From NCBI RefSeq assembly GCF_025979705.1, contig NZ_CP110136.1, positions 4,092,001 to 4,156,000 on the forward strand: a stretch of DNA of 64,000 nucleotides. The letters run 5' to 3'. Positions 56,654-57,596 of the stretch are shown piece by piece. The number at the start of each line of letters is the position of its first letter. Within the stretch, counting starts at the first letter, position 1. The position numbers and the translations under genes are program-made. This DNA is from Hymenobacter sp. YIM 151858-1 (GTDB lineage: Bacteria; Bacteroidota; Bacteroidia; Cytophagales; Hymenobacteraceae). The notes under the pieces are model-generated. The model ran no database searches, was not told where the DNA came from, and saw nothing but the letters and a program-made list of their open reading frames with translations.

Positions 56654-57232
56654 ATGGATACCGGCGTACACCCGCAAGCCCAACAATTATCAGTTTCTCA
56701 GCAACAAGAATTGCTGATTATCCTGAAGACGCGGTTTGCCCAGCACATGCAGCGCCACGAGGAGTGCGTGTGGACCGACGTGCAAGCCCGCTTGGAGGCA
56801 AATTCAGCAAAGCTTTGGTCGCTCTCGGAAATGGAACGAACCGGCGGAGAACCCGACGCAATTGGATTCGATGCAGCAACTGGCGAATACCTGTTCTGCG
56901 ACTGCTCGGCCGAAACGCCCCTAGGTCGGCGGAGTGTGTGTTACGACCGTGAGGGTTTGGAGGCGCGAAAGGAGCATAAGCCCGCACACAACGCCCTCGA
57001 CATGGCCGCCGCTATGGGCATTGAGCTGCTGACGGAAGAACAATACCGAAGCTTGCAGCAACTCGGCCGGTTCGATGCCAAAACCTCAAGCTGGTTGCAA
57101 ACCCCTGCCTCCGTGCGCAAGCTCGGCGGGGCGCTGTTTGCCGATTTCCGGTACGGCCGGGTTTTCGTGTACCACAACACGGCGCAGTCTTACTACTCCT
57201 CCAGAGGGTTTCGTGGCTTGCTTAGGGTTTAG
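56654..57232 (+). CDS. DUF4256-family protein
   Basis: A 192-residue protein with the DUF4256 pattern: LKTRFAQHMQRHEECVWTDV, LWSLSEMERTGGEPDAIGFD, CDCSAETPLGRRSVCYDREG and RVFVYHNTAQSYYSSRGFRG. Function unknown. The usual C-terminus (GFRG-L-V) is present, so the protein is full length. Its TAG stop shares the TA and the first G with a MITE-like element (57232-57381), so that element entered exactly at the stop codon. Confidence 0.82.
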   Translation: MDTGVHPQAQQLSVSQQQELLIILKTRFAQHMQRHEECVWTDVQARLEANSAKLWSLSEMERTGGEPDAIGFDAATGEYLFCDCSAETPLGRRSVCYDREGLEARKEHKPAHNALDMAAAMGIELLTEEQYRSLQQLGRFDAKTSSWLQTPASVRKLGGALFADFRYGRVFVYHNTAQSYYSSRGFRGLLRV

Positions 57233-57381
57233 GCTGTGTCTGAAAAGTTGCTTCAAGCCTCCTAGTCGTCATGCTGAGCCTGTCGAAGCATCTCTACCGC
57301 TTCGTCTGGGCTCGTTCACCGAAGCGGTAGAGATGCTTCGACAGGCTCAGCATGACCGTTCTGGAGTTTACAGACACAGCC
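57232..57381. mobile_element. 150-bp MITE-like palindromic element with TA duplication
   Basis: Terminal inverted repeats GGCTGTGTCTG (57232-57242) and CAGACACAGCC (57371-57381), flanked on both sides by TA (57230-57231 and 57382-57383), the duplication made by IS630/Tc1-mariner transposases. The interior is a 37-bp perfect hairpin (57268-57304 with 57320-57356). It has no coding capacity, so it would move only with a transposase in trans. Confidence 0.65.
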
Positions 57382-57596
57382 TAGGCTCCCTAGGTGCCCA
57401 ACGCCAAATAAAGGCATGGAGCAGGCACACTCGTTGGCCACCCAATTCTGCAGCACCCGCGCGGCAACCTAGCCGACGACGTCAGCACGGAGAAGTAACC
57501 AGGGTAGTAGCGCCAAACGGCATCCCAAGGGCAACAACCCACAAGCTGCTGCTTGGTGTCTGTCGTATCCGGCAAACCATGACGCGGTTCTAGGTG

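Follow-up and report, generated by a model that had tools for sequence, protein, structure and literature searches.

The literature describes several kinds of mobile and repeated elements that bear on the small palindromic element reported here. MITEPsy1 of Pseudomonas syringae is a short MITE of 100 bp with 18-nt ends containing TCTGAAAAAGCC; it is reported to move, is entered in its source table under the family "IS5?", inserts at CTAG or YTAA, which are three of the four YTAR sequences, and produces a 4-nt duplication (PMC3189936). Elements of the IS427 group in Paracoccus, such as ISPaes1 and ISPbe2, measure 832-865 bp, contain two ORFs with a frameshift motif and generate a 2-bp duplication in all but one case (PMC3281130). 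For IS5, YTAR has been given as the duplicated target (PMC10359306), and a second account gives C[A/T]A[G/A], slightly unlike YTAR (PMC11677980). RUP of pneumococcus is a 107-bp MITE with a TA target and ends resembling those of an autonomous IS, its partner being IS630-Spn1 (PMC2229807). The CGTC-tagged REPs (Di Nocera and others) have a CGTC head followed by AT, a stem of 8-9 bp, a variable loop of 4-5 nt and a CCA tail; they form inverted pairs that are mostly head-to-head, lack a RAYT partner and, in a few species, sit inside larger palindromes (PMC3733652). An open-access word search for Hymenobacter together with "miniature inverted-repeat" returned no paper.

The element lies in a 64,000-nucleotide stretch of Hymenobacter sp. 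YIM 151858-1 (contig NZ_CP110136.1), referred to here as the window. It is a MITE of 150 bp flanked by two copies of TA, 154 bp in all (57230-57383), identified from its sequence, its genome copies and its empty site. The left TA of the target duplication (57230-57231) provides the first two bases of the stop codon of a gene encoding a DUF4256 protein of 192 aa (56654-57232, + strand), and the right TA occupies 57382-57383. Between them are perfect terminal repeats of 11 bp, GGCTGTGTCTG (57232-57242, +, and 57371-57381, -), whose arms, including the TA, extend to 17 nt at 94%; the left end continues AAAAG, the same as the ends of an 859-bp IS described below, and the right end continues TAAAC and thus resembles the IS less than the left end does. 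The inner hairpin consists of arms at 57268-57304 (+) and 57320-57356 (-), complementary at 37/37 positions and separated by a spacer of 15 nt; the left arm is a REP-like unit with an outward-facing CGTC head at 57267-57270, and the right arm of the window copy has the head GGTC instead. The first-pass annotation had described a MITE with 11-bp ends, flanking TA and a 37-bp inner hairpin, with the TA and the element's first G forming the DUF4256 stop TAG (57230-57232), and all of this was borne out.

The core of the arms, GTCATGCTGAGCCTGTCGAAGCATCTC, occurs twice in the window against 0 expected from shuffles, and the 11-mer end alone is unremarkable there (2 matches with at most one mismatch vs 1.32 expected); the element is considered real because of its paired inverted ends, its other copies and its empty site, and not because of the 11-mer alone. 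It is short, non-coding and bounded by terminal inverted repeats, its 150 bp without the TAs being too short for a transposase, and a target duplication, an empty site, dispersed copies and ends common to an autonomous IS were all found. As single-stranded RNA the stretch has a predicted fold of -113.9 kcal/mol, compared with -52.0 on average for shuffled sequences (z -14.7). A known structured RNA was considered and dropped, since nothing in Rfam matched the element at gathering score; the matches below it were to long hairpins, the best being AaHKsRNA41 at 74 bits vs 97.

Homologues of the host gene occur in 53 of 100 family genomes, and the protein aligns to the last position of its Pfam model (1-173 of 173), in agreement with the earlier statement that its usual C-terminus is unchanged. 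The closest homologues, in genomes G005 and G004 (78 and 76% aa identity), lack the element and terminate at the same residue with the codon TGA, and the bases after this stop, GCCCCTAGGTGC in G005 and GTCCCTAGGTGC in G004, correspond to the right flank in the window, GGCTCCCTAGGTGC. Gene order is kept in both, with 75 and 74% identity for the previous gene and 71 and 70%, then 94 and 92%, for the two next genes, so that the syntenic empty site that had been proposed as a check on the annotation was indeed found. Taken alone, the downstream stretch aligned only slightly better than the shuffle maximum (63 vs 55 in G005, 51 vs 48 in G004), and in G003 (L093) no alignment rose above the shuffles (41 vs 59); it is thus the junction and the gene order that carry the evidence for the empty site. 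Among 29 homologue loci (L091-L119, approximately 1.5 kb per side) the element is absent from all and no paired ends were detected, the 11-bp end with at most one mismatch occurring once, unpaired, in L116. As the relatives carry TGA at the empty site, the assignment of TAG as the stop before insertion rests on the window's own flanks.

A genome-wide search with the element (4.62 Mb, 3 contigs), also suggested in the first-pass annotation, revealed four full-span copies among the matches listed, with 100, 97, 96 and 83% identity, the three outside the window being at C1:2153285 (97%), C1:2058853 (83%) and C1:2452441 (96%), the last of which has a degraded left end. At C1:341722-341956 there is also a pair of ends that has decayed further. 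The four copies differ from one another and so do not speak for recent movement. Two of them (L002 and L003) are situated between long ORFs and the fourth lies within a gene (L004): at 1501-1675 of that locus (C1:2058853-2059027) it interrupts a RhuM-like gene, whose halves, searched separately, match one stop-free frame of a Parabacteroides plasmid with no gene annotated there (L293) at 1501-1692 (E 7e-20) and 1705-1785 (E 0.005), twelve bases apart. From the right piece, a short segment matches genes annotated as RhuM family; the longer right piece gave no plasmid match at 1e-5 and a weak one, below cut-off, to PF13310 (E 0.002), and the left piece matched no Pfam family. In the family at large the paired-ends pattern was present at 15 places in 7 of 204 genomes, with 0 in the reversed control. 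The copies in G147, G085 and G075 enclose an inner hairpin of the same kind, and those read in G033, G047 and G059 have the same ends around an unrelated interior.

The ends of the MITE are shared with an autonomous element. An IS of 859 bp in G170 and G163, and of 863 bp in G127, carries at both ends an 18-nt sequence, TAGGCTGTGTCTGAAAAG, identical to that of the MITE, and a relative of 852 bp is present in G097. G170 holds 8 copies, one of which is 858 bp long and one of which has TAGACTG at one end. In the copy analyzed (L120), two overlapping ORFs at 240-620 and 524-1060, whose overlap contains eight consecutive A, match PF13340 (DUF4096; 96.9 bits) and PF01609 (DDE_Tnp_1; 72.1 bits), and both exceed the cut-off of 110 of the NCBIfam IS5 model NF033580 (125.9 and 154.5 bits). 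The partner thus combines an IS5-type DDE transposase with a length of 852-863 bp, a TA duplication and two overlapping ORFs, and is, on its domains, an IS5-type element and not an IS630 one. An IS with the MITE's ends was not found in the own genome by either end search or protein search, hence present mobility is no more than a possibility. No close IS match came from the other six genomes in which the MITE pattern occurs: G147 had 51% identity as its best, and G033, G047, G059, G075 and G085 were not among the 83 of 200 genomes that matched the IS at E 1e-20. The own genome does contain three IS5-type copies of 851-852 bp including the TAs, with ends TAGGC[C/G]GTGTTCTCA that differ from those of the MITE and with 40-42% identity in the part of the transposase searched; they show that TA-targeting elements are present in this genome, as the first-pass annotation had surmised.

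As an observation apart, the 18-nt end was found in 51 stretches of a wider scan, some of them in unrelated groups (Limnoglobus roseus and Halomonas, for example). In L. roseus, of another phylum, it forms inverted pairs spanning 891 bp (L273, L277, L280 and L281); closely similar IS ends thus exist in a far-off phylum.

Together with the duplicated target, the ends and the empty site, these data argue that the MITE is a non-autonomous element of the IS5 family, similar to the IS427 group, which would have been moved in trans by a DDE transposase of that type and inserted at a YTAR site; a probability of roughly 0.88 is assigned to this reading. The same-end IS agrees with the IS427 group in size (859-863 bp, 852 in G097), in the 2-bp duplication and in the two overlapping ORFs (PMC3281130), unlike the window element, which has no transposase. 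MITEPsy1 is alike in being a short MITE with related ends and target; in contrast to its 4-nt duplication the window element duplicates TA only, and the accessible part of its description mentions no inner REP-like pair (PMC3189936). RUP offers a parallel in its TA target and IS-like ends and differs in the family of its partner (PMC2229807). The element is an ordinary example of a known MITE type, its family name is corrected, and its striking position at a stop codon is plainly explained by the target rule presented below.

The target was defined on 30 insertions with both TAs intact, comprising 16 MITEs, 11 IS copies and the 3 own IS5-type copies; L003, which has lost its left TA, and L239, L230 and the contig-end copies of G165, with one end missing or damaged, were left out. 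All 30 lie at YTAR (15 CTAG, 9 CTAA, 5 TTAG and 1 TTAA), a context shared by 552 of 3387 flanking TA sites (16.3%), and two further copies missed by the end pattern, L240 and L241, are both at CTAG and would give 32/32. In the 15 copies with a non-CTAG target, for example L217 and L222, the outer bases on the left and right mismatch, which indicates that only TA is duplicated and rules out a 4-bp YTAR duplication. On both strands of YTAR the triplet TAR reads TAG or TAA, and each end of the element, read inward, has G as its first base after the TA. Consequently, with a YTAR target and a G at both ends, a TAA or TAG stop is remade as an in-frame TAG whichever way the element inserts.

In 8 of the 30 insertions the TAG at the junction closes an ORF of 100 codons or more (L208, L209, L216 in the window, L217, L220, L224, L229 and L163); of these ORFs that of DUF4256 alone has its gene status and usual end established; judged from the flanks, the stop before insertion was TAG in seven and TAA in one (L208). 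Of YTAR sites taken at random, 17 of 82 in the flanks (Fisher p 0.33) and 65 of 302 in the window (21.5%) likewise close an ORF of at least this length, and selection for stop codons was therefore rejected. At a threshold of 60 codons p is 0.49; at 150 codons the proportions are 7/30 vs 9/82 (p 0.09), figures that leave room for a mild excess at stop codons. Insertion at the stop codon follows from the choice of YTAR targets, with no need of selection or a terminator role, a target rule that the first-pass annotation had missed and under which stop-codon insertions are expected. What seemed a coincidence, an insertion precisely at a stop, gives way to a rule open to checking in every genome: elements that end in G and target YTAR meet stop codons at about the background rate for YTAR sites, one in five here, and remake the stop each time. 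The rebuilding of stop codons by elements was not encountered in any title or abstract opening in word searches of the open-access literature. It is a speculative and rather doubtful idea that the pairing of YTAR with a G end was favoured in IS5/IS427-type elements, gene ends being safe landing sites, and that composite MITEs spread REP-like pairs lacking a transposase of their own.

The arms of the inner hairpin open with GTCATGCTGAGC, which 4-5 variable bases separate from CGAAGCATCTC. The hairpin, whole or as one arm, recurs in about 39 or more other places of the own genome: manual merging of the 88 listed matches gave 43 places, spread over 40 loci, with 4 of the places being the full MITE copies; as the scoring covered 40 of 70 candidates, the count is a lower bound. 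The pattern with four variable bases was detected in 41 of 100 family genomes (reversed control 0), namely in all 8 genomes from the own genus and, beyond it, in a single further genus, with up to 500 occurrences per genome (G058). With strict arm patterns, the 40 own-genome loci yielded 18 tail-to-tail and no head-to-head pairs, one arm in 15 loci and no arm in 7, and the variable bases agree between the arms in 11 of the 18 pairs, where 2.2 would be expected from shuffling and at most 8 were reached in 20,000 shuffles. The loop CTGT was matched only in the MITE copies among the 40 own loci, in line with a spread of the unit by way of the MITE in this genome; CTGT arms are common in other genomes. 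Judged by its sequence and distribution, the inner hairpin is a repeat in its own right, an abundant REP-like pair that the MITE carries inside it, and this separateness had also escaped the earlier reading. A word search of the open-access literature for the letters of the repeat returned no paper.

The left inner unit is like the CGTC-tagged REPs in its CGTC head followed by AT, its occurrence in inverted pairs, its variable loop of 4-5 nt, its nesting in larger palindromes and its lack of a RAYT partner (PMC3733652); CGTCAT is present in the left arm and in many other copies, the right arm in the window having GGTCAT. It differs from them in lacking the CCA tail, in having at most 5 outer pairs (predicted fold of four single arms) against a stem of 8-9 bp, and in that all 18 pairs are tail-to-tail and not mostly head-to-head (PMC3733652). 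Because stem length and pair orientation differ, the unit is not classed as a CGTC-tagged REP. The own genome contains four Y1_Tnp genes (L140-L143; C1:234539, 2962026, 1321011 and 415896), which look like RAYT genes with GTAG-type REPs. They adjoin other palindromes, on both sides in L140, L141 and L143 and on one side in L142, and in L141 GTAGCGCGGACTTTGTAGTCCGCG stands on both sides of the gene. As the palindromes beside these genes are different ones and CATGCTGAGC was not found within 1.5 kb of any of the four, a RAYT as the mover of the inner unit was rejected. Separately, at least two further types of larger repeat were seen to contain the GTCATGCTGAGC hairpin or a variant form (L181, L189, L190, L197 and L201; L179, L196 and L198), one larger type being flanked by GGGGTGGTTGA and TCAACCACCCC and another having GGACAGTAAGTAAAAAGGC or a sequence near it. 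The present case, in which REP-like pairs with no visible transposase sit inside a DDE-type MITE, exemplifies one possible route of spread.

A TA target with duplication of the TA is the signature of the IS630/Tc1 superfamily, and on this basis, together with the short terminal repeats, the element could be taken for part of an IS630/Tc1-type transposon, the partner named in the first-pass annotation. The IS with identical ends contradicts this, for the only Pfam domains in it are DUF4096 and DDE_Tnp_1, neither of them an IS630-type DDE transposase, and IS5 is its best NCBIfam match, above cut-off. An IS630 origin was rejected on these domains (PF13340, PF01609, NF033580), and with the YTAR context being the one reported for IS5 (PMC10359306), such an origin is exceedingly improbable. 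The abundance of the inner repeat raises another possibility, that the whole is a large REP/BIME cluster in which the outer repeats are merely the outermost palindrome and no DDE transposition was involved; the pair, or one arm, does occur in many other places and also inside other larger palindromes. Against this, the outer ends enclose an unrelated interior in three genomes (G033, G047 and G059) and a transposase in four (G170, G127, G163 and G097), and constant TA ends at YTAR sites are likewise at odds with a cluster, which makes this reading highly improbable.

The host would benefit if the hairpin acted as a transcription terminator for DUF4256 or as a 3' end that stabilises its mRNA, and the insertion might then have been retained on that account. 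The very stable predicted fold and the placement directly at the stop codon speak for such a role. Against it, the hairpin is not followed by a T-run on either strand, as an intrinsic terminator would be, two of the own copies lie between long ORFs and one in a gene (L002, L003 and L004), and stop-codon insertions are not significantly commoner than at random YTAR sites. A terminator scan called nothing at the hairpin, a result to be read with the fact that it accepts loops of 3-8 only and is hence blind to the 15-nt loop. There is accordingly little chance that the element was retained for this function; of the earlier suggestion that the insertion was neutral or even useful as a terminator, the neutral part is enough and the terminator part is unsupported.

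Returning to the preferred reading of a MITE mobilized by an IS5-type element, its ends, duplication and empty site suggest the following course. An IS5-type DDE transposase acting in trans would recognize the GGCTGTGTCTG(A)AAA ends, and the element would insert at a YTAR site, here TTAG, duplicating the central TA. To judge by the two flanks in the window, this TTAG would have been the end of the DUF4256 gene, with the codon GTT followed by the stop TAG, and the site expected before insertion reads TTAGGCTCCC. The element and the flank (TA-GGCTCCC) both have G next to the duplicated TA, so the stop would have remained TAG and the protein unaltered. An ancestral MITE probably captured the inverted REP-like pair, which then would have travelled along with it. 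A neutral insertion at a tolerated site would suffice for this, and no benefit to the host gene was seen.

A side observation concerns the hexamer CCTAGG, which was examined in the whole window and in the flanks of L001-L050. By base composition it is the most over-represented palindromic 6-mer (88 in 64 kb vs 21 expected), its own 5-mers predicting 75; CTAG overall is rare in the window (120 vs 225 expected). Its density is 2.9 per kb outside long ORFs and 1.1 per kb inside, and in 51 of the 60 occurrences within ORFs it has the phase xxC-CTA-GGx. The hexamer is depleted in loci of other genera (0.2-0.3) and 2.2-fold over-represented in four loci of the own genus.
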